Positions 11,630-29,473 of a stretch of 45,852 nucleotides of DNA are shown in pieces. Each line of letters starts with the position of its first letter. Position 1 is the first letter of the stretch. The notes beneath the pieces are model-generated. The model saw only the letters and a program-made list of their open reading frames with translations, did not search any database and had not been told where the DNA came from. The position numbers and the translations under genes were made by a program. The stretch is from Polyangia bacterium (GTDB lineage Bacteria > Myxococcota_A > Polyangia > Polyangiales > JAUICN01), in the NCBI GenBank assembly GCA_030427835.1, contig JAUICN010000016.1:1-45852 (forward strand), read 5' to 3'.

Positions 11630-11638
11630 TTTTCCACA
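11630..11638. promoter_or_regulatory. DnaA-box-like sequence
   Basis: TTTTCCACA matches the DnaA box TTATNCACA at eight of nine positions. It sits about 70 bases from the parS-like site in AT-richer DNA. TTATCCACC at 11715-11723 is another eight-of-nine match. Single boxes are common by chance. Confidence 0.3.
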
Positions 11639-11780
11639 ATTGACTGTGGTTTGCGGTGGATTGGCTGCCAAGAAAAGACCGAACCAGCGCCAGGATCGCG
11701 GCGCGGGCATTGCTTTATCCACCCGCCAGACCCACATTCCCTCCGTGGAGCGCCCCCCCCAGGAAACAAACCCAGAGTCC

Positions 11781-12188
11781 ATGTCGGCCCCCCAGGGCCC
11801 GGTGGTTCTCTACGACGGCACCTGCGGGTTTTGCGACCGGGTGGTGCAGTTCGTGCTCAAACACGATCGAGAAGGGGTCTTCACCTTTGCGGCGCTCCAG
11901 GGGGAAACCGCCACCGCACTCAGGCAGCAACACCCCAGCATTCCCCATGAGGTGGAAACCATGGTGCTCTTGCATGGCGGCAACGTGTTTCTTCGTTCCA
12001 GGGCCGCCTTTGAAATGGCCGCCCTGCTCCCTCAGCCCTGGCGCTCACTGCGGGTCCTTCGCTGGCTCCCACGGTGGCTCACCGATCTGGGCTACAAACT
12101 TGTGGCCCGGGTGCGCTACCGCATGTTTGGCCAACACGACGTCTGCCCCATTCCAGAACCTGCCATACGGCACCGGTTCCTGCCCTAA
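11781..12188 (+). CDS. DCC-family thiol-disulphide oxidoreductase (DUF393)
   Basis: 135 residues from the ATG at 11781. The family normally starts just before the VVLYDGTCGFC motif, which fits this start, and AGGAAA lies about 20 bases upstream. VLYDGTCGFCDRVVQFVLKHD is the family signature: a thioredoxin-like strand followed by DGxCxxC with two redox cysteines. FAALQGETA, then LHGGNVFLRSRAAFEMAALL, and the C-terminal YRMFGQ and CPIP complete the usual layout at normal length. Substrate unknown. It stands alone between the parS-containing gap and the lipoprotein locus. Confidence 0.88.
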   Translation: MSAPQGPVVLYDGTCGFCDRVVQFVLKHDREGVFTFAALQGETATALRQQHPSIPHEVETMVLLHGGNVFLRSRAAFEMAALLPQPWRSLRVLRWLPRWLTDLGYKLVARVRYRMFGQHDVCPIPEPAIRHRFLP

Positions 12189-12343
12189 CCACCCCGGCGG
12201 CTGGACTGGCCACCCACCACAAGTACCCGGTGCACCCTCGACAAAACAGCGAGCCTTTCCTTCGAAAAGCGGCATGGCTCATTTTTTGCTGACCGGTAGT
12301 CGTGTTTCCGTTGTACCACCTGCTCCCTCGCCTCCGATCGCCA

Positions 12344-14263
12344 ATGGACCACAAGGGTTCCACCCCGCTACACAGCGCCCGCACCCTATCCACATGCCTG
12401 CTCTGGGCGGCGCTCGCCATGGCATGCACACCCGGCGCAACACCATCACACCAGGCAAAAACCACCTGGACCAAGAACGTGCCCCTGACCGACGGTTGGG
12501 TCATCAGCTTTCAGATGGATGTGCATCTATCCACCCAGACCCAGTGCCCGGGCAACCCTCTCGTGTGGAGCAACTCAGTCATCACGGCCGTCCAGGATAG
12601 CTCCGAACCAACAGGCTACAGGAGGGGGCCTGGCTTCACCGTACACAGGGCTGTACACAGTGCCGTCCACGGTGAGGGCTTTGCGGTGCGACTCCACCCC
12701 GAGGGCGCTGCACTTCGGGTTCCAGAATGCGACGCCTTTGATACCCATCCCGGTAGACTGGACAACCTTCTCACACAGGCCACCCAACGTACACTTCACC
12801 ACTTGGCAGAACTGGAAGGGTGGAATCTTGGCGAGAACTTCTCATCCACCCAGGTCCAACTGAGCCCTACCGTTGAAAAGGGCATCAAGGCCTTCGGCAC
12901 CCAGTTGCGGCAACGCCCCGTCGGAATCGTGAACCACCAGGTCCGCAGGCTACTGACTTCCGAAGAAAGTGCCACGACCCCAACGGCCTACGTGGCCTAC
13001 GAGTACCCGACCCAGAACACCCTTAGATGTGCGGCAACCCTTGTGGATTCCGGGTTGGACCGCTACCCCACCGTGGCCATCACCGCATCCCACTGCGTAG
13101 GAGATGGCTCCAGGCCCCAATGGTTAGGCCAGGGAAATATGGATCCGAACGACATCGACACCGGGCACATGGTCCCCGTGCACCTTGCGGTACGCCACAA
13201 CCGTGGCCCCGCCCCGATGGAGAACGTAGGCCTGGGCTTTGAAGCATCCCCCATAAACAACATGGCCATCCTCTTTTCCAGGGAGGATCTTCCCGGCCCC
13301 CGGGCAACCATTCGGTGGGAGCAACAGTTTCCCCCCGCGTCCTTTGAGAAGTTGCATTTCACGGGATTCGGCCACCCACGAAACGGGCAGGCCTCCACCT
13401 GGAAACCCACGGACCCCTTCGTAATCTCCCTGCCACAACAGCCCAAACCCTCACCCTCCGAGCCCTGGAGCCAACCCAGCCATGTCAGTGATCGCGTCTG
13501 GGTCGCACGGACGGACGCCTCCACCAATTGGGGAGACGACGGCGCCGGCCTGCTCAACCACCAGGGGCACCTGCTTGCGGTCCTTTCAGGAACCATCAGC
13601 GGGCCGGACAAGCTTTCCATGTCACCCATTTCCCAGCACACCGGTTTTCTTCAATGTGGCCTCCGCGTGGCAAACACACACCTCTCCTACGCCATTGGGT
13701 ACCAGGTGGATGCGGAGACCTGCCCGGACTGGAATCAAAACCACCTACCCCCCCATTTGCGCGACGGTTCCCCATGGGAGCCGGGCACCCTGGGCACCCT
13801 GCTAGGAGAAACCCAAACCATCGTAAGCGACTGGGAAACCGTGCAGTGCAACGACCCAGACCTGGGAAGCATAGGCATCCTGCGCCGCACCGTGACAGCG
13901 CAAATCGAGGAGGACCAGGCGCCCGTGACCCTTCATATGGATGCCCAGTTCCGGTACGACATCAGCGACAAGGACATCGTGCACAACCGCTCCGTATTTG
14001 GGGGCGCCCATCCGGTCGCTTCCTTGGCCACGTTCTTCACAGCCTACGTTCCCAACCCCCAGCGGACCATTTCACGTTGCCCAAGCACCCGGGGTCGCTG
14101 CACCTGCGTGGGAAATCCAAAACCCGACTGCAAGTGCAGACAACTCTCCCTGGCCGACGCATCCACCGACGCGGTGCATCTCATGTGGTGGACCATCCAC
14201 GGAGAACCGTTCACCGGGGAGGTTTCCCAAACGGAACTCTGGCAACTGCTCCAACGGCTCTAG
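12344..14263 (+). CDS. Family A lipoprotein 1: trypsin-like (S1) fold lacking the catalytic serine
   Basis: 639 residues from the ATG at 12344. A GTG at 12302 is possible, but the signal MDHKGST..LLWAALAMAC (lipid Cys28) starts well here. The middle resembles a chymotrypsin-like protease. CAATLVDSG then TVAITASHCV carries the His position (H250). INNMAILF (305-312) has Asn306 where DIALL proteases have Asp. WGDDGAG has Asp399 where the GDSGG serine should be. A Cys-rich tail (RCPSTRGRCTC then CKC) is shared with the other A proteins. With Asp and Ser both lost it is probably inactive as a protease. It shares an N-terminal segment (DGWVISF..TQC) with other proteins of the locus. The next gene follows after 37 bases. 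Confidence 0.8.
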   Translation: MDHKGSTPLHSARTLSTCLLWAALAMACTPGATPSHQAKTTWTKNVPLTDGWVISFQMDVHLSTQTQCPGNPLVWSNSVITAVQDSSEPTGYRRGPGFTVHRAVHSAVHGEGFAVRLHPEGAALRVPECDAFDTHPGRLDNLLTQATQRTLHHLAELEGWNLGENFSSTQVQLSPTVEKGIKAFGTQLRQRPVGIVNHQVRRLLTSEESATTPTAYVAYEYPTQNTLRCAATLVDSGLDRYPTVAITASHCVGDGSRPQWLGQGNMDPNDIDTGHMVPVHLAVRHNRGPAPMENVGLGFEASPINNMAILFSREDLPGPRATIRWEQQFPPASFEKLHFTGFGHPRNGQASTWKPTDPFVISLPQQPKPSPSEPWSQPSHVSDRVWVARTDASTNWGDDGAGLLNHQGHLLAVLSGTISGPDKLSMSPISQHTGFLQCGLRVANTHLSYAIGYQVDAETCPDWNQNHLPPHLRDGSPWEPGTLGTLLGETQTIVSDWETVQCNDPDLGSIGILRRTVTAQIEEDQAPVTLHMDAQFRYDISDKDIVHNRSVFGGAHPVASLATFFTAYVPNPQRTISRCPSTRGRCTCVGNPKPDCKCRQLSLADASTDAVHLMWWTIHGEPFTGEVSQTELWQLLQRL

Positions 14264-14300
14264 AAACCCCATCGCCCCCTGCGCCACACAGATCCACCCC

Positions 14301-16106
14301 ATGGCCCAAGCCGTACACATCGCCCAATCGATTCTAGCCACGGGAATAGTAGCGGCCATCGGTGCCTGCACGGCCCTTCCCCATTCCCAAAACACACCAC
14401 CTCCTGGGATTGCGAAAACCTCCACGGACCCACTCACACTGGATCTGTTGCTCCCCGACGGCTACCGGCTCGACACTCGCCCTGAGTACCACCTGTTTAC
14501 CTACCAAAGTTGCCCCGTCGCACGGGTAGTACGATCCCTCCAGGTGATTCTTTTCGATAGGGACCTCAACGGGGAGCTTGGCCTGGGCGTCAGTTGGAAC
14601 GAAGCCACCGGGCGGTTTTCTGTGCGACACGGCAACTCCATCTATCCCAACGATCATCTGCATTACCCCCCTGTGTTTTGCAAAGACCACGACCTTATGC
14701 ACAACGACGCGGTCGCAAAAATCACCCAGTCCATTGTGGACAAACTCCTTTCGATACTGGGAAACATCCCGCTCCACAACGAAGACGAACAGCGCATTGC
14801 CCTGCGCATCCATGACCTCTTAAAACGGCTATCCCAACGGCGCCCCGAAACGGTGGGTCGCTTCGGTGGAAGTTCCGGTGGGAATTCTGGTCCAACGCCA
14901 CTTCACATCCTTGTACCCCGTCGCGGCGACCTATGGGAGCTCACCTGCGCGGCAACGTTGCTCAACGAAACATCGCCTAGCCACAGTGCCATGGTGGCCA
15001 CGGCAGCACACTGTATTCCAGGCAACGAACCGCAGTTGTACGTCGGATCAGGAGAGATGGCCCCTGGCAACGGCCAACAGATCGACCTGGCTGTGGTCCA
15101 TCGAAACAAACCAAGGCCCAACCGATCGACACTCATGGAGCTCCAGGTGCCCGCCGCCAACAACATCGCCCTGCTCTTTCTCAAGAACTCCCTGGGCCAT
15201 TCGAACGTGGCCTGGCCCAAACCACCCATGCCCCCCCAGGCAACACCCGAGGGCCCGCTCACGGGTTTCGGCTACGGGAGCCCAAAAACCGGCACCCCCC
15301 ATTTCTGGCGAGCGGATTCCCTACAAACCACCCGCGAGAACACCTGGCACGCCTTGGGACAGGGGTTCAACCTGGCCCGGGGCGACGAGGGTGGCGGTGT
15401 CGCCGACGGGCACACCCTGTGGGGCATCCTAGGGGGCCGAGGCCCGGGCTACGACGCACCAACCCACCAACCTGCCCCACGGGCAGCGCTGATTCCAACG
15501 GCGCCACATGGCAAATTCTTCCAATGTGCCCAACGGACTGCCCGTCGACTGGCCAACACACACGGCCACTCCACCTCCCTCACAAGTACCCTTCAGGAGC
15601 GGAACCAGTGCCCCCGACCATCCGGAACAAAACAGTCCCAGGCACTCCCACCCCTAGCGGAGCGTTCACAAACCATTGCCGTGGGAGAACACGCCACCGC
15701 CGTGGTACTTCCCTGGGCAAGCGCCCTGTGCAGAAGCAACCTCGGCATCCACCCCATCGCCAACCGGAGAATCATGTTGGAGGATCCTAATGGCAGAACC
15801 CTCCACTTCCTCATCACAGCCCAAACGAAAACCACAGCAACAACAGACGGGGGCTCTGTGGCCAACCACGAAGACCACTTCCTAGGCTACCTACCTGCCC
15901 CAGACCAGCCCGTAGTGCCGCCCTGCCCGAGCACACGGGGTTCATGCAAGGACAAACCAGCCTCCGTGGACTGCGTCTGCAGCCTACCCACCCTGCAGCA
16001 GGCCGCAGTATCCACCTGGAGCCTCATGATTCAGCATCTGGGTGATGCCGGAAGCAACGACGTTGCGAACTTCGAAGCCTTCCTCAGCGTCATCGAAGAG
16101 CCATAA
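14301..16106 (+). CDS. Family A lipoprotein 2: trypsin-like fold lacking the catalytic serine
   Basis: 601 residues from the ATG at 14301. The frame stays open upstream, but that part overlaps the previous gene, and a lipoprotein signal (ILATGIVAAIGAC, Cys23) begins here. CAATLLNE then MVATAAHC keeps the His (H237). NNIALLF has Asn288 in place of Asp. RGDEGGG has Glu363 in place of the catalytic Ser. The tail PCPSTRGSC then VDCVC matches that of the first A protein. A predicted helical stretch (IVDKLLSIL..IALRIHDLLKRL) precedes the protease-like domain. It is probably catalytically dead but retains the fold and the disulphide cysteines. Paralogue of 12344-14263 and 26582-28516. Confidence 0.82.
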   Translation: MAQAVHIAQSILATGIVAAIGACTALPHSQNTPPPGIAKTSTDPLTLDLLLPDGYRLDTRPEYHLFTYQSCPVARVVRSLQVILFDRDLNGELGLGVSWNEATGRFSVRHGNSIYPNDHLHYPPVFCKDHDLMHNDAVAKITQSIVDKLLSILGNIPLHNEDEQRIALRIHDLLKRLSQRRPETVGRFGGSSGGNSGPTPLHILVPRRGDLWELTCAATLLNETSPSHSAMVATAAHCIPGNEPQLYVGSGEMAPGNGQQIDLAVVHRNKPRPNRSTLMELQVPAANNIALLFLKNSLGHSNVAWPKPPMPPQATPEGPLTGFGYGSPKTGTPHFWRADSLQTTRENTWHALGQGFNLARGDEGGGVADGHTLWGILGGRGPGYDAPTHQPAPRAALIPTAPHGKFFQCAQRTARRLANTHGHSTSLTSTLQERNQCPRPSGTKQSQALPPLAERSQTIAVGEHATAVVLPWASALCRSNLGIHPIANRRIMLEDPNGRTLHFLITAQTKTTATTDGGSVANHEDHFLGYLPAPDQPVVPPCPSTRGSCKDKPASVDCVCSLPTLQQAAVSTWSLMIQHLGDAGSNDVANFEAFLSVIEEP

Positions 16107-16375
16107 AACCGGCCAGCCGAGCCAAAGGCGCGGACCTCGAATTTCCAACCGCTCGCCACCGGAACACCATTCCCACCGAAACGGACCTGCCGCCCCTGGC
16201 CACCCCAAGCGCCAGGCAGTCCAGAAAACAGCAACTGAACGCGCCACAGCTCCCTGAAGTACTTGGCCTCGTCCCAATGAATTTCCGATGAGCGAACCTG
16301 GCACAGGACGTGCTCGACAGGACTACGCAAGCCACCCAATCCACCGTGGACAAACCATGGCCTGCAGCCCTTACC

Positions 16376-18511
16376 ATGCCGTTCTATTCCTCAAGGTCCC
16401 GAAAAAAAACCAACCCGCCAGCCAGAGTCGCCCGCCGCACCCTGTGGGCCCTCTGCCTCACGATTAGCAGTCCCCTTGCTAGCCCCTCCTGCCTGGCACC
16501 TCCCCCTGGGGACCAGAAAAGTAGCGCATCCTCCCTAAAATGCGGGCGCAATATCGGTGCCCATCAACTGAGTGTCATTCGAACCCTAGGGTATCGGACC
16601 GATCACAACCGCAGACCCATGTTGGACAGCCAAGGTCACCCGAAACCCGCCACCCTTGTGGCAGTGACACTTGGAACCTTTGGGGGACCAAACGGTCTAC
16701 TCGCCAAAACCTACACCGTGGAAATTTGGGGGAAAGATTTAAACCCTCCGCCCCGCGAACCAAAACTCGACTCTCGCTACCTGATTGCACCCGAGAGAAT
16801 TAAGCCAGCAGACTCCACAACGAATACCCCCCAACTGACCGACGGCGCCACACATACACCCCACCTGGAAGAGGATGGTGTCATTCGCATGACCGAGGAT
16901 GATGACGGCACCTACCATCACGTAGCCCCCGTGGACAGCACCTCGTCCTCGACCGCGCTTGTCCCCACCACGTCGCAAACGGGCCAGGTGGCCACGATCC
17001 CTGACCCAGGGACCGCAGGCCTACCCGCAACCGCACGGGCCTCCCAAACCCCAACCCTCTATCAACAGGCCCCCACGTGGGCCCCCGCAACCCTGCAATG
17101 CAAGCTCAGGGGATCCACCGTTGGCCTTGATACCGATTGCACGGAAGTTACCCGCAACATCATCAGCGAAATCGCACGCTATGTTCACAGCACGCTGTTG
17201 TTCAATCTAGGGAAGCTCCCCCCAGGGGTTGCGGCCTCCTTCGAAACCGTTCGCACCGCCTACGTTGCGTCCAGTCAAGACTTCGCAGGGCACACAAGCG
17301 CGCAGCTACTCACAAGGGCCGCCACCAGCTCCACACACGACTTCAATAACTTCCTGGATGACTTCTACGCGACCATGACGAAGATGGTGGTGGACTACCT
17401 GCAAACCCTTGGAAACAAGCTCCGCCAACACCTGGAGCAATACCCAACGGAACTTGCCGCCCTGACCACCGCCACCTGCAGTCAACTCCTGGACGTGAAC
17501 CCCCAGTTTGCCGCCCGCTGCAACCACTTCCTTGCCGACCCGGGTCAGTTCAACGCCTGGGCAAGCGAAGCCATCACCCAGGCCACCAACCCTGAACATC
17601 TCCTGGCCCGACGATTCGTCCAGGAAAACCGTACCCTCATCGACAGCGATCGGGCAGTTCCGCCGCTGATGAACGCAGCACCACCTTTCACCCCCATACA
17701 CCTTGTGGAAACCAGCTGGCAGGCACAGCATGAAGCCGAAACCCACCTGCACCCCTCCATGTTTGCATTCCACGCGGGTTACTACGACGCCGCGGATCCC
17801 AACGGCCCATTTGCGGGAAACGTTTCCCTCCACAACGCGCTCATGGCCGCCACCCTGCAGCGGTGGCTTTGGTTGCACGCCACGTCTTCCCAGGGCGGCC
17901 CCGGTGCAGAGCCCCAGGCCCCAGCGGGACCCCAGTGCCACGTGATCACCTCGAAGCTCAAACACCCCTCCCGTTGCCATGAAGCTGCAGAGGCGTCCTA
18001 CGGAACATGCATGGCCCGCATGAACGAACTCGCCCTCGCCACCACCATTCCCGCACCACCCACCATGGTCGCCCCGGGAGGAAACCCGCATGGAAACCTG
18101 GGAGGAAACCTGGGTCACCAAAGCGACATGCATCTTGGCGACCCCAATCCAACCCCATCCAACACCGGGTTTCCCAGTCAGACCATGCGACCTGAACCGG
18201 AGTACAAGGAAGCCCTGCTGCACGCCTGCGCAAACCTTCGAACCAACATCACGGCCTCCTGCGATCAAGCGCGGCCACCCGTGAACAACCTGGGCTGGGT
18301 GGAGGGCACCGTGGCCGCTCTGGATCCAAACGGCTGCAAGGAGGCACACCAACCCCCGTGCACAGGTTTCAGGGGGCTACACCAGACCATGGCGGAACAT
18401 CACGTGCCCAACGCCGGTGCCATCGCCACCCAGTACCTCGATGAGGCCTGCAGAACCGGCCTTGCCATCTGCACCGCCATGGGCCCCCAGGACTCCCCCT
18501 GGAAGAACTAG
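16376..18511 (+). CDS. Family B lipoprotein 1, no recognised family
   Basis: 711 residues from the ATG at 16376; a GTG at 16310 is an alternative. No clear ribosome binding site is visible. The signal ends LASPSC (Cys39). I do not recognise a known domain. Against the paralogue at 21484-23610, shared landmarks are CGRNI soon after the lipid Cys, xTVEIW, CKLxG, FNN followed by a long helix (from F323), WxxxHEAExxxxPSM (H452) with YY downstream, LxxATLQRWLWL, Cys pairs in CHVI..RCHEAAE..GTCMAR, and LLHACANLRTNITASC. The middle (150-250) is low-complexity Thr/Pro/Asp-rich. C-terminal cysteines suggest disulphides outside the cytoplasm. The stop is 8 bases before family C protein 1, so the two are probably co-translated. 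Confidence 0.8.
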   Translation: MPFYSSRSRKKTNPPARVARRTLWALCLTISSPLASPSCLAPPPGDQKSSASSLKCGRNIGAHQLSVIRTLGYRTDHNRRPMLDSQGHPKPATLVAVTLGTFGGPNGLLAKTYTVEIWGKDLNPPPREPKLDSRYLIAPERIKPADSTTNTPQLTDGATHTPHLEEDGVIRMTEDDDGTYHHVAPVDSTSSSTALVPTTSQTGQVATIPDPGTAGLPATARASQTPTLYQQAPTWAPATLQCKLRGSTVGLDTDCTEVTRNIISEIARYVHSTLLFNLGKLPPGVAASFETVRTAYVASSQDFAGHTSAQLLTRAATSSTHDFNNFLDDFYATMTKMVVDYLQTLGNKLRQHLEQYPTELAALTTATCSQLLDVNPQFAARCNHFLADPGQFNAWASEAITQATNPEHLLARRFVQENRTLIDSDRAVPPLMNAAPPFTPIHLVETSWQAQHEAETHLHPSMFAFHAGYYDAADPNGPFAGNVSLHNALMAATLQRWLWLHATSSQGGPGAEPQAPAGPQCHVITSKLKHPSRCHEAAEASYGTCMARMNELALATTIPAPPTMVAPGGNPHGNLGGNLGHQSDMHLGDPNPTPSNTGFPSQTMRPEPEYKEALLHACANLRTNITASCDQARPPVNNLGWVEGTVAALDPNGCKEAHQPPCTGFRGLHQTMAEHHVPNAGAIATQYLDEACRTGLAICTAMGPQDSPWKN

Positions 18512-18519
18512 GAAATCAA

Positions 18520-21237
18520 ATGCGTCAACACCACTCCACACGGTTCCCCCTGCTCTCCCTCATTTCCCTGGCCCTCATCTCCCTGGCGCTGGTCTCCTGC
18601 AGCCCACCCGCCCTGCGGATCAAATCCAACCTGCGGGAGCTCCCAGGTGGAGTACAGGTATCGTTCACCTCAGGGCAAACCCCGCTCACCTGCGGCACCC
18701 AGGTCATGTTGGACGACCGGTTGAGCGTCGGGCACACCCGCCTGGCCTCCTCCACGTCGACCACCATCGACGTTCAGATCCTGCGGGTGGAACTCACCGC
18801 ACCCCGGGGTGGAACCTTCACCGCCCAAATCGAAATGCACCACCAGGGCCAGGGCGCCGATGCACGCATCGGTTACAACCGCACCTACCACAAAAGCGAC
18901 AACCTAAACGTTCCCACGTACGCGCAGAACAACTTCGCCTCCGCCCTTCAGCTGGCCGAAGGAGTACTTCAACCGGACTCCTTCCAGCGATTCCACAACC
19001 CACTCCAACTCAGGGACCCCACCCAGCCCATGCTGACGGACTCCCTGGATGACATGACCCTTGATCTTTCACAGGTCGTGGCCACCCAAACGGGCGTACA
19101 GCAATTCCAGGATGCCAAGGAGGGATTTTGGACATTCATGGGTTCACCCCCGGCACCCACTCCGGAGGCCCAGGGGCTGGTTCCAGTGGACACCTTTGTA
19201 TCCGCGTGTGAGTTCGAAACCAGCCCCGTTCGCATCAAACACATGTTTGATGAAGTGGCCTCCACCACGGCGGCCATGGCCCGAATGATGGCCCAGGGAA
19301 CGGGCACCCACGTGGATGTTCCCACGGGAGTTCACCCCGGGAAAACCCACCCACGAACCTGGGGAGGCCTTGCCGATGCCCTACGCCTATGGGCACAGAC
19401 CCACAGCGCCCATGGCGGATCCCAAATGGACAACAACGCCCAGAAGGAAATCGAGTTGCAGCTCACCGCCACCATCGGTTCCCCGGAGCGGGCCCTGGCC
19501 AACCCGGACACGTGGGTAAGCTACACCGATCCAAATGGCGCCAAGAATATTGACGCCAGGTGCCTCAACGGCGAACCCGCAGTCCTGGGTGTACGCCACA
19601 ACCCCGAAGGTCATCCCGCCTACGCCCTCGTGGATTTTGCGGGCGGCGCAACCTCCCATGACCGTGACGAAGGCACCGGATCCCTCAACGGGTTCCTAGG
19701 GCCTGACGCCCCACCCACCGACGACCAACTACCGGCACTCGCCTCTGAGATTTTCGAACCCACGGGTGGGTTGGCCCTCGGCAGCACCCCATACGATGGT
19801 ACCGCCATCGAGGGCGTACCCGCACCGGAATGGCATTTTCTTACCACCCCATGTACCCAGGATCTGGGCATCGGTGCCAACACCAAAAACCGCCACCAGG
19901 GGATGCTGAACTTCGTGGAGTTGTTCCAACGCTTTGCGGGCACGCTGGTGGCGGGGGACCACCCCGTGGAACAGGTTATTGTGGTGGGAGAAGGGGCCGG
20001 GGCCGCCCAGGCCACGTTGGCCCCCCAGGTCATCACCGCACAGCTAAACGGGCCGTTGTTGTTCCGAAAGGGATTGGCCATCTACCAGGACGGCAACGGC
20101 CTCGTACTGGACGCCAAGCCTGGCATCGTCCCGGTGGACACCATCACCTCCGGCAACCCCCTGCTCACCCTTCCCGGACACCTTGCCGAACACCTAGACC
20201 AGGTCGCTGTGGACGAGTGGGGTTTCAGAGATCTACCGTCCACAACATACCATGCAAACGCCCAAAGTTGGAGCTATGGAAACCTCGGATCCACCTACCA
20301 GAACAAAGCATCTGGAATTCCAAACGACTTCCATGCCAATAGTGGGTGGGCAGACACCCAACAACGCAAAATCCGAAGCACGCTTCAGGACATAGAACGC
20401 TATCTGCCCTTGCTACAGGGTGCAGGGTTACGGGTACAGGCTGCCCTAGGGCGGCTCAGCCACCAGAGCCAACATGGGGACCACGATCACCTGGCCATGC
20501 ACGCGTTGGGGGATCCCACCCTGCTGCAGTTCACCCAGTGGGCCAATGATGACAGCCCTGAAAAACGCACCGCATTGCAAACCGCCATCAACCTGGGGGC
20601 CGGCCTCGCACGGATAGAGATTGCCAGCACCGTGGCGGGTTCAAGCGCCGCCGCCGCTGAAGCCCTGGCCTTGCTGCAGGAAAATCAGTGGATTCTCCCT
20701 GAGGACCTCCGCAAGGCAGCACAAACCACCGCCCAGGCCACGGCACAAACCATCCACGTGGCATCAGAAGTCACCACCAAGTTCCTGGACGCCCTGGCCA
20801 CCATCCAGCTGGGGATCCGGGCCGTCAACGGCGACCCCATGGCCATCACCGCCATTGTGCTCACCTCACTCGATGCCCTGGGCTTTCAAGTTCCCAACTG
20901 GGTGAAAATCCTCACCTCCAGCCTCACCGCCCAACAATGGGCCGACGCCACCATGAATCACCTTTTCGGTCGGGCAGGGTTGGCATTCTCCCCTCACCTT
21001 GCCGTGGCCCTCGCCGGCAGTGCGGACCACGACTGGCTGGAGTCCGCGGCCAATGCCGCCATAAAGTACGGCTTTCTGGCCATCCAAAACGACCTCCAAC
21101 GGCGGGTAGAGCACAGCGCCACAGAGTTGGCCTCCCAATTCCTCCACAAGGAGCTTCGCTTCCTCGGCGCCTACGCGGGCCGTGCCATCAGCCAGCGGTT
21201 TGCCGCCGGCATGGCCGATCTGCGCCCCGCCATCTAG
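18520..21237 (+). CDS. Family C lipoprotein 1: degenerate pectinacetylesterase/NOTUM-like alpha/beta hydrolase
   Basis: 905 residues. AGGAAA lies six bases before the ATG, and the lipobox is LVSC (Cys27). N-terminal segment LPGGVQVSF..LTCG is shared in style with family A. Landmarks in the order of the pectinacetylesterase (vtpJ/NOTUM) family are: VDFAGGATSHD (F373), compared with the family's F.GGG.CWD oxyanion segment; CTQDLGIGA (C445), compared with CTGDxHxG; HQGMLN (H459), compared with HHRGxxN; and VVGEGAGAAQATL, compared with GxSAGG. In the last, Gly492 occupies the nucleophile serine position. The C-terminal 300 residues are mostly helical, ending RFAAGMADLRPAI. The family match is my motif comparison, not a search. 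If right, the enzyme is inactive. Confidence 0.8.
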   Translation: MRQHHSTRFPLLSLISLALISLALVSCSPPALRIKSNLRELPGGVQVSFTSGQTPLTCGTQVMLDDRLSVGHTRLASSTSTTIDVQILRVELTAPRGGTFTAQIEMHHQGQGADARIGYNRTYHKSDNLNVPTYAQNNFASALQLAEGVLQPDSFQRFHNPLQLRDPTQPMLTDSLDDMTLDLSQVVATQTGVQQFQDAKEGFWTFMGSPPAPTPEAQGLVPVDTFVSACEFETSPVRIKHMFDEVASTTAAMARMMAQGTGTHVDVPTGVHPGKTHPRTWGGLADALRLWAQTHSAHGGSQMDNNAQKEIELQLTATIGSPERALANPDTWVSYTDPNGAKNIDARCLNGEPAVLGVRHNPEGHPAYALVDFAGGATSHDRDEGTGSLNGFLGPDAPPTDDQLPALASEIFEPTGGLALGSTPYDGTAIEGVPAPEWHFLTTPCTQDLGIGANTKNRHQGMLNFVELFQRFAGTLVAGDHPVEQVIVVGEGAGAAQATLAPQVITAQLNGPLLFRKGLAIYQDGNGLVLDAKPGIVPVDTITSGNPLLTLPGHLAEHLDQVAVDEWGFRDLPSTTYHANAQSWSYGNLGSTYQNKASGIPNDFHANSGWADTQQRKIRSTLQDIERYLPLLQGAGLRVQAALGRLSHQSQHGDHDHLAMHALGDPTLLQFTQWANDDSPEKRTALQTAINLGAGLARIEIASTVAGSSAAAAEALALLQENQWILPEDLRKAAQTTAQATAQTIHVASEVTTKFLDALATIQLGIRAVNGDPMAITAIVLTSLDALGFQVPNWVKILTSSLTAQQWADATMNHLFGRAGLAFSPHLAVALAGSADHDWLESAANAAIKYGFLAIQNDLQRRVEHSATELASQFLHKELRFLGAYAGRAISQRFAAGMADLRPAI
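18560..18589. repeat. 15-bp tandem duplication within a signal-peptide coding region
   Basis: TCATTTCCCTGGCCC and TCATCTCCCTGGCGC are adjacent, 13 of 15 identical and in frame. They encode the doubled ISLAL core of the family C protein 1 signal peptide. Confidence 0.7.
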
Positions 21238-21360
21238 CGGCTTCGAGGTCACTTCCACCGGATCGCCTCCCCCATGCAAAATTCAGCTGCAAATTGAGTC
21301 GCAGGGTGACCACTGGAGAAGCCATAGAAAAAGCGATCTAGCCGGTTCGTATTCAAGGTT

Positions 21361-21386
21361 CCTGGAAACCTACCCAATTTTCCAGG
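21361..21386. other. 8-bp inverted repeat between family C 1 and family B 2
   Basis: CCTGGAAA (21361-21368) and TTTCCAGG (21379-21386) are separated by ten bases, in the 246-base gap 21238-21483. The gap has no gene I can support. The repeat could be a terminator stem without a T tract, or an operator for the second B-C pair. Confidence 0.35.
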
Positions 21387-21483
21387 CACTTACGCTTGGC
21401 ATAGCCCGTGCAGAAGGGGTTCTACGTTTTGCCAGGGATCCATTCCAGGTCCCCGGCCAACGCCCTGCCAGGAAGCCAAACCC

Positions 21484-23610
21484 ATGAGCACCCACAACAC
21501 GTCCCCCAAGCCCTCCCGACACCCCAAACTCCCTGCCCATCGACTCGGTGCCCTCCGACTCGGTGCACTTCTACTCACCCTCCCCACCCTGGCCTCCTGC
21601 ACCGCCATGGGCGTCCCCAACACCAACACCAAATCCACCCACCGCTGCGGCCGGAACATCTACGACCTTTTTAACCTAGAGGTTCGGCGTTGGGTAAGCC
21701 ACCGCACCCATGAAGACGGAACCACCGTTCTCGATGAAACCACAGGTTCCACCCAAGACGCCCTTCGAATGGACATCACACTAAGTAACTTCGGAGCGAG
21801 CACCTCCCAACAACAGTCCGTCACCTGGAAGGTCGAGATTTGGCAAAACGGCACTCGAAAAGTGGAAGACCCCCGAGAGGGCCACGAGCTCTTTCGTGAA
21901 ATCGCATCCGCCAACCCGGCCGCAGACTCCTCTGAGTTACAAGGCACCCCCCATGCAGACTCCGCCCATGCCCGGCTTGAGCCCATTGCTAGGGACGACT
22001 CCACCGCCGCCCTGGCGGACAGCTCCACCCAAACCCGAACGCCGGTTGGCCTTCGCAACACATGGCCCTTCGCCGACACCGCAAGCCAAGCCAACGCCCT
22101 GGGGTGCAAACTCATCGGGCATTCCGCAGATCTTCAGGACGGCAGTTGCAGTACCGTTTCCTTGGAGATTAGCTCCAGCATCAGTCGAGCGGTGCGCGAC
22201 TTCACCGTGGGCGACCTCGCTGGGCTACCGCTGGCAGACAAGACCCCCCTGGACATGATCCAAGCCTATTCCACCCAAGTCATTCGCGAGGGCAACGGTT
22301 CAGCCAGAAACGGCCACATCCGAAGCATTCAAGGCGCAATCTACGCCCATACCACAACGGGGCATGAAGGGCTTTTGTACTCCGGACTCCATGAAAACAG
22401 CCAATCGTTTAACAACTACATCGAGCATCTTGCGGGATCCATTCGGCACTGGGCAGAAGCCTACCTCAACATCGTTCAGGAAAAACTACTGGCCTACGCG
22501 GAAAACAACCAGGAACTACCCGATCGCATCCAGAAAGTGTGCGCGGTCCTCTGGGGATCCAACACGCCATTCAACGATGCATGCGCAGAAAACAATGAAA
22601 ACGTTCACGCATGGGTAGAGAATTCCGTAAAGCATTCGCTCAGTCTTGTGAGCCAGGCGCGACGGGTACTTCAGCAAACCGCCCCCGTCCTTGGTCAAGA
22701 CCGAAGAGACAACAACTCCTATCCCGCCAAACATGCGATGCTGCCCGATGCTTGGTACCCGCGGCACGAGGCAGAACTGGAAACCGACCCTTCCATGGAG
22801 GTCTTTTACCATGTGTACTACGGGGCCCTGTCCGAGCCGGGCGCAGTTGAACTTGCACCGGTCAGCCCTGAGCCCGGAAACGCCAAGCGACACCGACACG
22901 CACTGTACTCCGCGCAGTTGGCCCGCATGCTGTGGCTTGCAGAAAACTACCCTGGGAACCACAACTCACTGGAACCCCACATCACACCGATATCCGACGC
23001 GTGTGGCGTCATCTATGGCCAAGAGGGCCCCGGAGGCAACCACCGGCTCTGTGAAAAGGCCGCGCAAATCGCACATTCCACGTGCATGGCCTATCAAAAA
23101 AGGCCGGAGTTTATTCTCACCAAATATCCGGAACTTCATGGTGGAAACCAACCGTCCCCAAGTGTCGCTCCGATCGCTCCCGACCCCCATCTGCGAGACA
23201 ACAGAAATGCCGTCAATCTGAACCCGAACGCACAGTTGGGCCCGGTCGCATACCTAAACGAAAAGCAACTCTACTACCTTGCAAAGGGCTGCGCCGGCCT
23301 GCGGGACACCATGGCCGCCAGCTGCGGCATTGCCGAGGAAGAACAAACCCTTGGCAGCAATGTCCCCCCAGACGTGGGCACACCCCTAGATATGGAGCGG
23401 TGCAGACACGCGGTCACCGATGTGTGCGGTACCTACCTCCAAATGGAAGACGCCTGTGAAAAAGCTGAAATCCCCGAGCCCGGAGAAAAAGCAACCCATC
23501 TCCTACAACGATCTTGCACCGCTGCGGCAGAAATTTGCCCCGCACAACAAACATACGGCCCGGTTGCGCCCCCCTGGACCAGCCACCTCACCCCAAACAC
23601 CGATCACTAA
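21484..23610 (+). CDS. Family B lipoprotein 2, no recognised family
   Basis: 708 residues. AGGAAG (21470-21475) is well placed for the ATG. The signal ends LPTLASC (Cys39), and its coding region has a 15-bp tandem repeat at 21541-21570 (RLGAL twice). Landmarks shared with the B protein at 16376-18511 include CGRNI, VTWKVEIW, CKLIG, FNNYIEHLAGSIRHWAEAY (from F309), HEAELETDPSMEVFYHVYYG (H428), LYSAQLARMLWL, HRLCEKAAQIAHSTCMAY and GCAGLRDTMAASC. Conserved His, Glu, aromatic and Cys residues suggest a shared fold with several disulphides, but I cannot name it. It is followed after 69 bases by the second C gene, repeating the B-C order. Confidence 0.82.
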   Translation: MSTHNTSPKPSRHPKLPAHRLGALRLGALLLTLPTLASCTAMGVPNTNTKSTHRCGRNIYDLFNLEVRRWVSHRTHEDGTTVLDETTGSTQDALRMDITLSNFGASTSQQQSVTWKVEIWQNGTRKVEDPREGHELFREIASANPAADSSELQGTPHADSAHARLEPIARDDSTAALADSSTQTRTPVGLRNTWPFADTASQANALGCKLIGHSADLQDGSCSTVSLEISSSISRAVRDFTVGDLAGLPLADKTPLDMIQAYSTQVIREGNGSARNGHIRSIQGAIYAHTTTGHEGLLYSGLHENSQSFNNYIEHLAGSIRHWAEAYLNIVQEKLLAYAENNQELPDRIQKVCAVLWGSNTPFNDACAENNENVHAWVENSVKHSLSLVSQARRVLQQTAPVLGQDRRDNNSYPAKHAMLPDAWYPRHEAELETDPSMEVFYHVYYGALSEPGAVELAPVSPEPGNAKRHRHALYSAQLARMLWLAENYPGNHNSLEPHITPISDACGVIYGQEGPGGNHRLCEKAAQIAHSTCMAYQKRPEFILTKYPELHGGNQPSPSVAPIAPDPHLRDNRNAVNLNPNAQLGPVAYLNEKQLYYLAKGCAGLRDTMAASCGIAEEEQTLGSNVPPDVGTPLDMERCRHAVTDVCGTYLQMEDACEKAEIPEPGEKATHLLQRSCTAAAEICPAQQTYGPVAPPWTSHLTPNTDH
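21541..21570. repeat. 15-bp tandem duplication in a signal-peptide coding region
   Basis: CGACTCGGTGCCCTC and CGACTCGGTGCACTT are adjacent, 13 of 15 identical and in frame. They encode RLGAL twice at the start of the hydrophobic core of family B protein 2. Confidence 0.7.
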
Positions 23611-23679
23611 TCCCCCACTGCCACCAAACGCAGTCCCTTCATCCCAACCAGTCCACCCACAACCCCTGCTGGAACTCCA

Positions 23680-26580
23680 ATGACCCAACCCCGCACGTCC
23701 CAATCCACCACCCACCCATGGCGCCGCCTTGGAGCGTGGATCACCACCGCCACCCTGGCCGCTACTTCCGTGGCAATCGCCGGCAACCTTACCGCCTGCC
23801 AGGCCCCCGCCGCACAACTGCAGGGCCGTGGAAAGTCCATCACCCGGGAGCTCCCGGGCCATGTCAACGTCACATTCAACTCTGCTCTCTCCGAGGTAAA
23901 CTGCGGGGAAATCATTTCCCTCAACGATCAGTTCAGTCCCGGCGATTCCTTTTCCAACGTCGCCCGTGTGGACACAAAAAGCCTGGAGCTACACACCATC
24001 ACCCTCTCGGACACGTACGGAAAAAAATTCTCCGTGAGGATTGAAATCCAACGGAACGATCAGGGTCGATCCGGAGTCAACCGCACCTACTTCTACGACC
24101 AGGACCTCGGTTTTCCGTTATACGAAAAATCCAAGTTCCAAACCTACAAACAGATTGCCACCATCACATGGGAAGGGAACCAGGCGGACAGATTTGTACA
24201 TCCAGACGAAAACCCAGACAGCACCTCCTTGCCGGGCGTGTTCATGGATGCCATCGACGATACCGGAATCGATCTGTCAAAGGACCTCGGGCTCAACGGC
24301 CTATCCCCAGACTCCCTCGGCCTCAACAAGCTCCACCTCGACAGAATCTTCAACTGGACGGACGATGAGAAAAAAGAGGGAACACAGCCCTACAGCCACC
24401 TCTCCATGGCATCCGTCCACTGGACCCCCAACGTGGTGGGCCAGGAAGCCTGCGAAACCACTTACCGTGGAGACCACGCCACCGAGATGTACGCCGAGAT
24501 TGGCTACAACCTTGCCTACGTGGCTCGAATGATGGCCCAGAAGGCGGGAGTCATCGTAGATGGAAACACCGGCGCCACGCCTGAACCGGTCTGGAACGGC
24601 CTCTCCAATGCGCTCGTCCATTGGGCCACGCCCCCGGGAATCCCAGACTCCGTGGCGGACACGGAATTCCAACACCAAATCCTCCTACAGATCCAATCCG
24701 CCATCCACGGCTACACCCGCGCCATGGCCCAGGAGGATACCTGGGTAGAGTATGGAGATCTGGAACCCAACGGCATCCAAGCCACGTGCGCCAACGGAGA
24801 CGCGGCTACCTACGCAGTCAAGTACAACAGCGGAGGCGCACCCTACCTCAACTACCACTTCAGCGGCGGCACCACCTCCCACGACCAGAACGACCGCACA
24901 GGAGACGTGGACGACTTCCTTGGCACCGACCACCCGCCGGAAAACAACCAGGGCACCTGGGATCGGCTGGCCATGCCCTCCCTGGACGTCGCCACCGAAT
25001 TCACCACGCAAGTTACCGCAGGTCAGGCCACCCCAGGCCAGGCCAGCACAAGTCAGGGAGCCAACGGAGACTTCGGGTACGACGGCACACCTTCGGGTGC
25101 CCCGGCACCCATGTGGCAAGTTACCCAACCCGCATGCACCCAGGATCTTACCCTGGGTGCGGACACCGATCCCGCCAACGGCTACCACCAGGGCCTCACC
25201 AACACCAACGAGTTCCTGGCCCAGTTGCGTTACGCTGTGACCGGCACGGAACACCCCATCGAACACATTGTACTGTCAGGAACCGGAGCCGGAAGCGGCG
25301 GCGTCACCCTTGCAAAACTCTTCGACCACAAGTTCAGTAAAGTCTTTACAGAGATGGAGATGCCCACAGTGGAGGTGAACTCCAAGCACTTCAACATCAT
25401 CCCCATCTCCATGATCATGGAGGCGAGTCCTTTTCAGGCCCTCACCAAGGACCTATCGGAGAATCTCGATCGCTTTGCCGAAAAAAACTGGAACATGGCC
25501 GGGCTGTACACAAGTACTGGGGTCTGGGGAAATGGGTCCGCCATTTGCAATGACTGCTGGGCATCCCTCACCTACGTCATGAGGAACCTCGCCATTGACA
25601 AACATTCGAACTGGATAGCGTCCCGAGGAAGCAGGATCTGGGAAACCATCGTCGGAAACGATAGCAGGCGGATCCCAATCCCAACCCTGGAGCCCCACAT
25701 CAATACCCTGATCGCCCAGGCCGGCGGCGGCAACCGCGCGGCCACCGCACTTCTAGAAAACATCTACCACGTGGCCAAGGAGGGGGATCCGGACCTACTC
25801 ATGCTGGGCTCCCTGAGGGACGAAACACTGCTCCAGTTCCTCCGCTGGGCGGATTTGGGAGGCCCAGAAACCCTGGATCACATGGACAAGGCCCAACGGC
25901 TGGCCACCGCCCTTTTACAACTGCGTGTCACCCAGGCCGCAGAGGGCACCCTCATGACCATTGCCGAGGCCCTGGACTTCTTTGAAAAGAACGAATGGGC
26001 CGTTCCAGACGGGCTTGTGGCCCACTCACGAAACCTCGCCCAAGCCTCCGAAGACGTTCGAACCGGCCTCGAGACCTTCTTCAAGGCCCTGGGCGCCGTT
26101 CAGGTGGCCGTGCGCGCTGCCAACGGGGACCCCCTGGCCATCGCTGCCGCGGTGGTGGAAGTCCTGGACGTGGTGGGCGTGGAAGCACCGGAATGGGTCA
26201 AATCCCTCGTGGGCCTCCAGGACTTCACCATGGATGACCTGGCCAACCACACGAAGAACTACCTCTTCGATACCGGTGTGGGGCGGGTGGCCCAGGGCGT
26301 GGCCACAAACATCGCCGACCTCAAGGGAATCACCGTGGCAATCACAAGCAACGAGAATCACTCCTGGTGGGAAAGCGCTGGAGAAGCCGCGGCGGACTAC
26401 GTCTTCAAGGCAGGCACCCAACAGGTCAAGAAGAGTGCCAACCAACTGGTGGGCGAGTTCCTCACCCGTGAACTCCCCTTTAACCGCCACTACGGTGGGC
26501 AAGTCGCTAGCTGGGCGTTTAATCAGTTCCGAGGTGGGTTTGCTGAAGGAATGGCGGACCTACAACCTGCCTCGAACTAG
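23680..26580 (+). CDS. Family C lipoprotein 2: degenerate pectinacetylesterase/NOTUM-like alpha/beta hydrolase
   Basis: 966 residues. A twin-Arg-free signal ends AGNLTAC (Cys40). N-terminal LPGHVNVTF..VNCG aligns with LPGGVQVSF..LTCG of the first C protein. Pectinacetylesterase-like landmarks recur in the same order: YHFSGGTTSHD (F394), CTQDLTLGA (C486), YHQGLTN (H503) and IEHIVLSGTGAGSGG. Gly536 sits where the nucleophile Ser of GxSAG is expected. The 33-residue spacing from the HQG His to the Gly is identical in both paralogues. The C-terminal half is helical (ALGAVQVAVRAANGDPLAIAAA) and ends GFAEGMADLQPASN. Only one base separates its stop from the next gene, indicating translational coupling. 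Probably a non-catalytic hydrolase-like surface protein. Confidence 0.82.
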   Translation: MTQPRTSQSTTHPWRRLGAWITTATLAATSVAIAGNLTACQAPAAQLQGRGKSITRELPGHVNVTFNSALSEVNCGEIISLNDQFSPGDSFSNVARVDTKSLELHTITLSDTYGKKFSVRIEIQRNDQGRSGVNRTYFYDQDLGFPLYEKSKFQTYKQIATITWEGNQADRFVHPDENPDSTSLPGVFMDAIDDTGIDLSKDLGLNGLSPDSLGLNKLHLDRIFNWTDDEKKEGTQPYSHLSMASVHWTPNVVGQEACETTYRGDHATEMYAEIGYNLAYVARMMAQKAGVIVDGNTGATPEPVWNGLSNALVHWATPPGIPDSVADTEFQHQILLQIQSAIHGYTRAMAQEDTWVEYGDLEPNGIQATCANGDAATYAVKYNSGGAPYLNYHFSGGTTSHDQNDRTGDVDDFLGTDHPPENNQGTWDRLAMPSLDVATEFTTQVTAGQATPGQASTSQGANGDFGYDGTPSGAPAPMWQVTQPACTQDLTLGADTDPANGYHQGLTNTNEFLAQLRYAVTGTEHPIEHIVLSGTGAGSGGVTLAKLFDHKFSKVFTEMEMPTVEVNSKHFNIIPISMIMEASPFQALTKDLSENLDRFAEKNWNMAGLYTSTGVWGNGSAICNDCWASLTYVMRNLAIDKHSNWIASRGSRIWETIVGNDSRRIPIPTLEPHINTLIAQAGGGNRAATALLENIYHVAKEGDPDLLMLGSLRDETLLQFLRWADLGGPETLDHMDKAQRLATALLQLRVTQAAEGTLMTIAEALDFFEKNEWAVPDGLVAHSRNLAQASEDVRTGLETFFKALGAVQVAVRAANGDPLAIAAAVVEVLDVVGVEAPEWVKSLVGLQDFTMDDLANHTKNYLFDTGVGRVAQGVATNIADLKGITVAITSNENHSWWESAGEAAADYVFKAGTQQVKKSANQLVGEFLTRELPFNRHYGGQVASWAFNQFRGGFAEGMADLQPASN

Positions 26581-26581
26581 G

Positions 26582-28516
26582 ATGCGGCATATCCCACGGG
26601 CTCGCGTGAGATCCCGGAGCAGCACATTGGGGCGCCCCTTGTGTTGCTCTCCCCTCCTCTGCATGGCGCTGGTAGCGTGCTCCGCTGGTTCAAACACCCC
26701 AGCCGCACACATCAAATCCAGCCACCGGCAGACCACCGTGGAGTTTGGTGACGGCGGCAAGGTCATCTTTGACCACCTCAACCGGGTCTACATTCACCCC
26801 CGGTGCGACAACTCCCTGTTCTGGAATGTACAAATCACGGTGGTCCCCCAGAAGGGCGACAAAGCCCTGGGGACCACCCGCCTGGATCTCCACCACAGGG
26901 TGCAAAAGGACACCTATGCCCTGATCGAAGAACCCGCCGAGATACCTGCAGAAACGCCTGACTGTGACGAATTCACGCTCGAGATCCAGGATCTGCGAAA
27001 GCACGTCGATCAACTGATTCGGCACTCCGTAGAAAGCCCCCAGGAACAGAACACCGAGAACGAAACCGACATCACCTCAACCACAGTACGCAACCTGGAG
27101 ATGGAAGAAATCCTCACCCAAACCCGCCGGCTCCTGCACAAACTGGAAACCGGCAACTTCCCCTCCACCAACCGCACGCTCATCCACCATCGCACCCGTA
27201 CCAAACCAGGCGGCCACGCCTACGTGCTCACCTCCCAATGGCCGCCCGCAACGGAGCAACGGCGCCTTACCCATTTCGACAGGCACGAGCTGCATTGCTC
27301 CGCCACCATGATCGACACCCGGGCAGGCCCCTACCAAACCGTCGCCATCACCACCGCGTCCTGCCTCACTCCAGCTCCGGGCACCAAACGTTTTCCCAAC
27401 ACCACATACCTGCCCCTTCGGCTGGGGGGAGGATCCAAAATCTCCTGGGGCGCGCCGGTGGAGTTTGCGGTGGTTCACAACCAATACCGTTCCCAGGGCG
27501 CAGCACACCAAAACAGCCCCCTTGTGGACAATCCGCCTGCCAACGACCCAATGGCAAACCACATCGCAGACAACGACATCGCCCTGCTTTTCGTGCACAA
27601 ACCCCAGTGGGGAATCCGCGCCCACACACCCGCAACGCACAACAGCACTCCGGAGATTATGCAAACCAAGTTGGCAGGAAAAGTATCGTTTTTAGGCTAC
27701 GGATCACCACGGGTGGGCACCGGATCCCAATGCATGCTCTCGGTACAGGGCCAGGACAACCTCCCCAACCTGCGTTGGAACGGTGTGTCGTCCTGTTCCG
27801 TGGGTTGGGGCGACCGGGGCGCCGGAGTCATGGCGAGCGACGGTCATCTCCTGGGCATCCTTCGGGGAACACAAATCGACCCCACGACCCCCTGGCCCAC
27901 CCAGGACCTTCAAGTCACCCCCACCTCAGCGCACCTGGATTTCATTCAATGCGCCCTTGGCATGGCATCACGACGGGCCGACATTCCTGATGGCAAACGG
28001 GGCTCCATTCCCTTCGACGTCAACGAGGAAAGTTGCCCGCCCCATTCCTCCCATCGAAACGTTTCCCTGGCCCGGAACACCCGTGAAACCTACCTTCGAA
28101 AGAAGCGGGTGTTGGTGTCCCCCTGGGAAACATTCACGTGCAACACCGCCTCCTACAACTACCATCAGATCCAGCACCGCACGGCTGTGGTGGAGGTTCC
28201 CAAGGAAGTATCGCCCACAGAGTCGATCACCATTCACCTCTTTGCTGAACCGGCCCCCAACCCCAGCTCAGACACCGTGGGCTTCTATTCTGCACAGGCC
28301 GGCCCCTTCCCCGAAACCCAATGCCCCCACGCCCTTGGAAAATGCGACTGCAGCCCCATCGAGCGAAACTGCCCCTGCCACCGAACCAAGGTAAGCGAGG
28401 TTCTCGACGATGCCACCGACCTTGCGCGCCTCGCACTTTCAAATCCAGACTCGGGTGAGATCCCTGCCATCCCCCAGGCCGAAGCCGACCACTTCCGAAG
28501 CCTGCTCTACCACTAG
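26582..28516 (+). CDS. Family A lipoprotein 3: trypsin-like fold lacking Ser and His
   Basis: 644 residues from the ATG at 26582, one base after the preceding stop; the upstream open frame is out of phase inside family C 2. The signal ends CMALVAC (Cys33). The S1-like framework is CSATMID then TVAITTASC, where Ser260 takes the place of the catalytic His. DNDIALLF keeps Asp332. VGWGDRGAG has Arg412 in place of the catalytic Ser. The Cys tail QCPHALGKCDC then NCPC matches the other A proteins. It has lost a different pair of triad residues from its two paralogues, so decay was at least partly independent. The N-terminal segment (GGKVIF..HPRC) and a charged helical region (130-190) precede the protease-like domain. 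Confidence 0.82.
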   Translation: MRHIPRARVRSRSSTLGRPLCCSPLLCMALVACSAGSNTPAAHIKSSHRQTTVEFGDGGKVIFDHLNRVYIHPRCDNSLFWNVQITVVPQKGDKALGTTRLDLHHRVQKDTYALIEEPAEIPAETPDCDEFTLEIQDLRKHVDQLIRHSVESPQEQNTENETDITSTTVRNLEMEEILTQTRRLLHKLETGNFPSTNRTLIHHRTRTKPGGHAYVLTSQWPPATEQRRLTHFDRHELHCSATMIDTRAGPYQTVAITTASCLTPAPGTKRFPNTTYLPLRLGGGSKISWGAPVEFAVVHNQYRSQGAAHQNSPLVDNPPANDPMANHIADNDIALLFVHKPQWGIRAHTPATHNSTPEIMQTKLAGKVSFLGYGSPRVGTGSQCMLSVQGQDNLPNLRWNGVSSCSVGWGDRGAGVMASDGHLLGILRGTQIDPTTPWPTQDLQVTPTSAHLDFIQCALGMASRRADIPDGKRGSIPFDVNEESCPPHSSHRNVSLARNTRETYLRKKRVLVSPWETFTCNTASYNYHQIQHRTAVVEVPKEVSPTESITIHLFAEPAPNPSSDTVGFYSAQAGPFPETQCPHALGKCDCSPIERNCPCHRTKVSEVLDDATDLARLALSNPDSGEIPAIPQAEADHFRSLLYH

Positions 28517-28597: not shown

Positions 28598-29473
28598 ATG
28601 GGGTGGACCGGCATGGGGATGGCCAACATGGGGATGGCCAGTCTGCAAGCATGGCTTACGGGTGTGGCGCTCGCCGCCCTTTCCGCAGGGCACTGTGCCG
28701 CCATGTGCGGCCCCCTTTGCCACGCCATGTGCGGTACCCAGTCACGCAACGGCCTATCGGCCTACCCCCTATGGGCTTACCAAACAGGCCGAGTGGTGGG
28801 GTATGGATCCCTGGGCGCCCTGGTGGGTTGGACCGGAAAGCGACTTCTTGACCACACGCCTCCCTGGACCTCCTGGGTTGCCGCAGCAATCGCGGGCCTG
28901 GTAATCATTGCTGCAGGGTGCCGACTTTGGCAACACACCTTTGCCGACCCTAAGAAAAACGAGGACTCCGTTGCGGGTGCCCCAACACCCCACCCACCGA
29001 AACCCGTACAGCTCCGGTTGCCCCGGTCCCCCAACCCTTCCCAGAACCGCCGTACATTGCACGGCCGCAGGTTTCGCTGGGCCACTGCCGTGCCCAGGGC
29101 ACTCAACTCCCTACGGCAAAAGCCAGGAGGCCTTTTCCTGGTGGGAATAGCCACCCTCATCCTGCCCTGTGGCGTCCTCTGGATTGCCGCGGCCCACGCC
29201 GCAGTCCAGGGCCACCCACTCCTAGGTGCACTTGCCATGGTGGGGTTCGCCCTCGGTAGTGCCGTGCCCCAGATCGCGGTGCACCTACTCCTTCCTCGAT
29301 TGCTCCCTGGGCTTGCTTTACGGTCACCGTGGATTCCCAGAGTGCTTGGCACCTCCATGATCCTAGTTGGATTCCTATTTGTGGGGCACCCGTGGTTGCA
29401 CTTGCAACACGCACAAAGTGGCATCCATTCCGTGCACAACATGGGCGCTCCGTGTATTGTTCCAGAGCAGTGA
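28598..29473 (+). CDS. SafE/DsbD_2-like membrane protein of the cbb3 locus
   Basis: About 291 residues if started at the ATG at 28598; ATGs at 28613, 28619, 28628 or 28634 are equally possible. The first codons are a 15-bp repeat (28613-28642). GHCAAMCGP is the conserved entry motif of the SafE/UreH-like branch of DsbD_2 membrane proteins, normally GHCxGMCG. Hydrophobic segments include WVAAAIAGLVIIAAG, FLVGIATLILPCGVLWIAAA, LLGALAMVGFALGSAVPQIA and VLGTSMILVGFLFVG, with the conserved LPCG turn. Such proteins are often encoded beside ccoI and are proposed to help copper handling during oxidase assembly. The 64-base gap to ccoI suggests one operon. Confidence 0.75.
   Translation: MGWTGMGMANMGMASLQAWLTGVALAALSAGHCAAMCGPLCHAMCGTQSRNGLSAYPLWAYQTGRVVGYGSLGALVGWTGKRLLDHTPPWTSWVAAAIAGLVIIAAGCRLWQHTFADPKKNEDSVAGAPTPHPPKPVQLRLPRSPNPSQNRRTLHGRRFRWATAVPRALNSLRQKPGGLFLVGIATLILPCGVLWIAAAHAAVQGHPLLGALAMVGFALGSAVPQIAVHLLLPRLLPGLALRSPWIPRVLGTSMILVGFLFVGHPWLHLQHAQSGIHSVHNMGAPCIVPEQ
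28613..28642. repeat. 15-bp tandem repeat at the 5' end of the SafE-like gene
   Basis: ATGGGGATGGCCAAC and ATGGGGATGGCCAGT are adjacent (13 of 15 identical) and create four in-frame ATG codons. The true start is therefore unclear. Confidence 0.7.

Follow-up and report, generated by a model that had tools for sequence, protein, structure and literature searches.

Pseudoenzymes, inactive homologues of S1 (chymotrypsin-fold) proteases among them, are already known kinds of protein. Inactive enzyme homologues serve as sensors of ligands, as partners or as regulators, as exemplified by CspC of Clostridioides difficile (PMC6636752, PMC12880746) and by the serine protease homologues (SPHs) of insects (PMC9365933), and those of metallopeptidases have been reviewed (PMC11266112). 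Insect SPHs form large expansions beside intact paralogues, often with extra domains; in Tenebrio molitor, 125 SPHs stand beside 137 intact S1 proteases (PMC11172050). Expansions of prokaryotic S1 proteases are known as well, for instance in predatory Bdellovibrio, and their members are nearly all intact: a 2008 survey of 91 prokaryotic genomes, which is restricted to Pfam-detected members and serves only as a rough yardstick, lists 247 trypsin-family proteins, 2 of them inactive homologues (PMC2605481). Here we analyze an array of seven lipoprotein genes at positions 12,344-28,516 of contig JAUICN010000016.1 of the Polyangia bacterium assembly GCA_030427835.1. The window is this entire contig (45,852 bases; C1 in our numbering), part of a 3.3 Mb draft genome. 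By TopA, its nearest matches are Myxococcales/Polyangia metagenome bins with 70-73% identity, which places the organism most probably in the Myxococcota. We propose that the array probably represents a lineage-specific set of lipid-anchored, disulphide-rich pseudoenzymes kept as binding modules or as regulators of active paralogues, a combined statement in which most of the weight lies on the identity of the proteins.

The array comprises seven open reading frames (ORFs), all on the + strand, with ATG starts and undamaged frames, belonging to three families in the order A-A-B-C-B-C-A:

12344..14263, + strand: A1, lipoprotein, predicted chymotrypsin-fold pseudoprotease, 639 aa; triad His-Asn-Asp (His kept, Asp102 to Asn, Ser195 to Asp)
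14301..16106, + strand: A2, lipoprotein, predicted chymotrypsin-fold pseudoprotease, 601 aa; triad His-Asn-Glu; Pfam Trypsin E=5e-5
16376..18511, + strand: B1, orphan lipoprotein, 711 aa; 14 Cys in common with B2
18520..21237, + strand: C1, lipoprotein, pectinacetylesterase/Notum homologue over residues 344-569, 905 aa; nucleophile Ser to Gly (GEGAG); extra N- and C-terminal regions
21484..23610, + strand: B2, second copy of the orphan family B, 708 aa
23680..26580, + strand: C2, second copy of the predicted pseudo-pectinacetylesterase lipoprotein, 966 aa; GTGAG
26582..28516, + strand: A3, lipoprotein, predicted chymotrypsin-fold pseudoprotease, 644 aa; triad Ser-Asp-Arg

All seven proteins carry a signal peptide and a plausible lipobox Cys as judged by sequence (AMAC in A1). 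Coordinates, start codons and blastp agree with an earlier note on this DNA as to the seven intact genes and their order. Its description of them as seven paralogous lipoproteins holds within the three families, where blastp links A1-A3 (5e-30), A1-A2 (5e-17), A2-A3 (2e-14), B1-B2 (6e-27) and C1-C2 (2e-109), and fails between them, where nothing better than 0.03 was obtained. A common N-terminal domain was rejected, since alignment of A, B and C is limited to the signal peptide and a short tag after the lipidated Cys. Pairwise identity is about 23-26% in A, 25% in B and 31% in C, and because it reaches only 23-31% the copies must be old. Recent amplification is thereby ruled out, and the note's view of intact, well-diverged paralogues stands, with no stop codon or frame damage in any of them.

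The fold of family A is revealed by PF00089 (Trypsin), which matches A2 with E=5e-5 and an intact paralogue on contig C18 (A14) with E=6.6e-9; in a genome search with this model, three A members exceed the curated cut-off. A1 and A3 alone give faint Trypsin_2 matches (0.02 and 0.08) and are tied to A2 through blastp. The three window proteins share a build in which a degenerate chymotrypsin-fold core is preceded by an N-terminal region that has two conserved cysteines and followed by a Cys-rich C-terminal domain. A profile of 13 A proteins matches 25 places in its own genome, and full-length members number 18 at eight loci, a count that is based on genome profile searches and on sequence stretches totalling about 480 kb and may miss members too remote for the profile. 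Three of these members lie in the window, six in one tandem run on C15, four at two loci on C18, two on C17 and one each on C12, C2 and C25. Four further proteins resemble A only in the C-terminal Cys domain (E=3.5e-15; L153:8957-10909, L155:7471-9291 and two in L156:7248-11307), and because their middle region is different we regard this domain as a separate module; a protein at L154 on C15 is a distant, partial match. Interleaved with the A run of C15 are lipoproteins of another family, F (L013:5465-6889 and 10974-12464; L157:10378-12045), and Pfam gave no match for the F member tested. On C2, A13 adjoins a 2044-residue protein that its sequence names as Rhs/SpvB-like (L015:936-7070).

The His57-Asp102-Ser195 triad is intact in 3 of the 18 full-length A members (one on C18, two on C17) and lost in the other 15, including all three window copies (A1 HND, A2 HNE, A3 SDR). 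At the position of Ser195, the inactive members carry D, E, R, E, C, G, D, T, L, R, I, V, T, R and Q. Ten Cys columns are nevertheless kept in 17-18 of the 18 members, and the GDxG(G/A)G frame is largely near-fixed. These patterns bear on the possibility that the genes are decaying remnants of a protease and esterase expansion, under relaxed selection and with no present function. Freely varying catalytic residues and the limitation of the full-architecture A family to one genome would both fit such decay, but we consider it highly improbable: none of the seven ORFs, which have 601-966 codons, is broken, their third-position G+C (0.65-0.74), like their base composition, matches that of flanking genes, and at 23-31% identity the copies still have the cysteines and the GDxGGG frame, which decay would strike too. 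Branches in the A tree are very long, and the tree does not fix how many times the triad was lost; parsimony gives two changes, and one is possible. Family A thus seems to be a pseudoprotease family that has kept its fold and dropped catalysis, and we hold the pseudoenzyme identity of its inactive members to be very probable. It shares with insect SPHs the chymotrypsin fold, the triad losses and the large expansion beside intact paralogues, but it is bacterial, with lipoprotein signals, other flanking domains and a function that is as yet putative. Prokaryotic S1 proteases have the same fold and are nearly all intact, whereas 15 of 18 full-length members of A, in a single genome, appear inactive.

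The intact A14 directly adjoins the dead A15 on C18 (L150:7454-11272), an arrangement that would suit a role of the dead copies in regulating or chaperoning active paralogues through hetero-complexes, like those of inactive serine protease homologues in the cascades of insects. Such a role would also be consistent with the persistence in the genome of intact enzymes of both the A and C families with the same lipoprotein build, and there are precedents for inactive homologues that cooperate with active proteases or transduce signals (PMC9365933, PMC12880746). Taken as the explanation of the whole array, however, it is doubtful, as 15 dead against three intact A members is a poor ratio for one-to-one control and no intact member lies in the window.

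Family C has no direct match in Pfam (E<=10), NCBIfam or PDB sequence searches. The initial clue to its nature was the likeness of a CTQDL...GxGAG motif to the YCTGD...GxSAG of pectinacetylesterase and Notum (PF03283, CE13; motifs in PMC5465549), whose CLDG-, YCxGD- and GxSxG-type motifs align with C1 344-569. Over these residues, hhalign gives E=1.6e-7 against the enzymes of the same genome and its relatives, and comparison with the relatives' pectinacetylesterases without the own-genome enzymes gives E=9.8e-7. Control comparisons were far weaker, with 0.078 for the best of 60 column shuffles, 0.16 for the reversed profile and at least 0.04 for other lipoprotein families. In contrast to pectinacetylesterase and Notum, both C proteins have Gly in place of the nucleophile (GEGAG in C1, GTGAG in C2), Ser (C1) or Glu (C2) at the catalytic Asp position in a by-eye alignment, and large extra regions at both termini. 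We therefore regard C as a remote homologue of pectinacetylesterases that, as judged from its sequence, has lost at least the nucleophile, and its pseudoenzyme identity is highly likely, if slightly less so than that of A.

PF03283 is present in 78 of 97 genomes of the order, and the organism itself encodes two intact PF03283 lipoproteins (GNSAGG and GDSAGG) side by side on contig C7 (L048:6775-14084), so that both enzyme families have intact lipoprotein members elsewhere in its genome. Each C7 esterase is directly followed by a lipoprotein (D1 and D2, mutual paralogues), a pair duplicated in the manner of B-C, and a further family, E, consists of three tandem Cys-rich lipoprotein-like ORFs on the strand opposite to the esterase pairs (L048:1216-6915).

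The replaced residues of A and C also allow continued catalysis through moved or alternative residues to be weighed, such as a Thr nucleophile in A8 and A13 or a metal-assisted esterase in C. Partial triads do survive (His57 in A1 and A2, Asp102 in A3 to A6), and Thr does occupy the nucleophile position in A8 and A13. His and Asp, however, occur together only in the three intact A members, and Ser is gone from both C proteins, which makes this the least probable of the alternatives.

Family B is an orphan. B1 and B2 have 14 of 16 cysteines in common, and searches of Pfam, NCBIfam, PADLOC and PDB sequences yielded nothing usable. Its cysteine spacing resembles that of the D and E lipoproteins near the intact pectinacetylesterases, but profile comparison did not support identity with either (B-D E=0.29, B-E 0.15). 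Because B stands directly before C both times, it is a reasonable guess, though no more than that, that each B is the partner of the C encoded beside it. The earlier note had left all three families unrecognised; this remains apt for B and is superseded for A, which has the trypsin fold, and for C, a pectinacetylesterase homologue, both of which are missing catalytic residues.

The same note took A, B and C to be a single-function unit, either a dedicated complex or an operon. The seven genes are co-directional and the B-C pair, as the note had stated, is duplicated as a unit, adjacent twice with 8 and 69 bases between its members. In array order the intergenic gaps are 37, 269, 8, 246, 69 and 1 bases, and four of the six, at under 70 bases, fit the partial co-expression that the note had suggested; the gaps of about 250 bases that precede both B genes, which it had left unlisted, do not. 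Promoter and terminator scans returned no more sites than were obtained with shuffled sequence. Moreover, 15 further A genes occur at seven other loci of the genome without B or C. In the order as a whole, 31 of 184 genomes contain a match to the A profile, and every match outside the own genome is partial and in or around the protease core. Relatives' trypsins are retrieved through the core only, with E down to 2.9e-11; those inspected look like ordinary trypsins, and six of seven show TAAHC-type and GDSGG motifs. Full-architecture A was thus seen in one of the 184 order genomes only, and B and C are confined to one of 318 genomes of the class; no relative of B was found among these 318 genomes, nor any relative of C in GTDB genome contigs. 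The co-occurrence of A, B and C in related genomes that the note had anticipated was therefore not borne out, and linkage of the three is seen in this genome only. With B and C confined to it, no second genome offers a comparison for conserved linkage. With the co-directional layout in its favour and these distributions against it, a single A+B+C system has partial support and appears rather unlikely, though less so than the regulatory explanation.

The note's statement that no described system has this composition is upheld by searches of Pfam, NCBIfam, PADLOC and PDB, which turned up none. A likeness to the array, in architecture only, is offered by the MIB-MIP lipoprotein system of mycoplasmas (PMC12994834). 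There, adjacent genes encode a serine-protease-fold lipoprotein and its binding partner. MIP is an active protease, unlike the predicted pseudoproteases of the array, and Mycoplasma peptidase models gave no match to A in a library search. A phage or defence origin was rejected: C has no match in viral contigs, and PADLOC defence models gave a single match, to B1, at chance level (E=0.06).

The array is flanked by the two genes listed below and is followed, past the second of them, by genes for cytochrome cbb3 oxidase and its assembly, named by sequence:

11544-12188: upstream flank, DCC-type thiol oxidoreductase-like ORF, named by its sequence
28598-29473: downstream flank, DsbD_2 protein (library match), starting 81 bases past the array

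On the coding strand, GC skew is negative in the array genes (-0.12 to -0.22) and positive in genes on other contigs (A13 and the esterases), and amino-acid make-up seems to shift along with it.

The short tag that follows the lipobox, a Lys-Ser/Thr at about +8 to +16 after the lipid Cys, is present in all seven array proteins, by sequence, and is common to many unrelated lipoproteins of the genome. Of 65 predicted lipoproteins, 21 carry it, where shuffling gives an expectation of 2.5 (maximum 10 in 2000 shuffles), in a sample partly biased to A clusters and with lipoproteins called by a simple rule; counted by family, it occurs in 10 of 42 against 1.5 expected (maximum 7). Tagged proteins are found at window positions 12344-28516 and at L013, L014, L027, L048, L150 and L161. 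Two tandem lipoproteins at L027:12580-15973 carry the Lys-Ser tag, and at least one of them has leucine-rich repeats (Pfam LRR_4, 9.6e-8). The tag is a candidate sorting signal. It recalls the signal for lipoprotein export in Bacteroidetes (K-(D/E)2 close to the N terminus; PMC5080379) in being a short Lys motif after the lipidated Cys of unrelated lipoproteins, but here Lys is followed by Ser/Thr, in a myxococcote, and the sorting role is putative. A broader view, and one less probable than not, is that the lineage has assembled an envelope repertoire of modular lipoproteins sharing this new sorting tag, in which decommissioned hydrolases (pseudo-trypsins and pseudo-pectinacetylesterases) would serve as diversified ligand-binding modules, like animal inactive protease homologues.

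Returning to the array as a set of retained pseudoenzymes, old gene duplication would have given rise to copies that kept the fold, dropped catalysis and are now retained for binding. The proteins carry predicted signals for export and lipidation and would stay attached to the cell envelope. There, the inactive pockets of the protease-like and esterase-like proteins may take up peptide and polysaccharide or acyl ligands or, alternatively, bind and tune active paralogues. We propose this role because inactive homologues elsewhere act as sensors, partners and regulators, and by itself we rate it at slightly less than an even chance. Several points weigh against the overall reading. The binding role is drawn from other pseudoenzymes, and the sequences would be compatible with catalysis by other residues. 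C2 by itself reaches only E=0.002 against pectinacetylesterases, and the region of the esterase-triad His, in a further departure from pectinacetylesterase and Notum, cannot be aligned in C. AlphaFold models from two-row alignments are unusable for both C2 (mean pLDDT 28) and B2 (mean pLDDT 32; strands, then many helices, at low confidence).

The case is unusual in several respects: one bacterium has 15 inactive chymotrypsin-fold proteins, they are predicted to be lipid-anchored, dead hydrolases of two kinds lie together in one cluster, and intact paralogues persist in the genome. Animals commonly have inactive proteins of this fold, and the 15 found here compare with only 2 of 247 in the 91 prokaryotic genomes surveyed (PMC2605481). 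The shared post-lipobox tag is a candidate signal for sorting lipoproteins in Myxococcota that lends itself to testing, and the array, together with the intact paralogues of both families, offers a tractable case of bacterial enzymes turning into binding or regulatory proteins.

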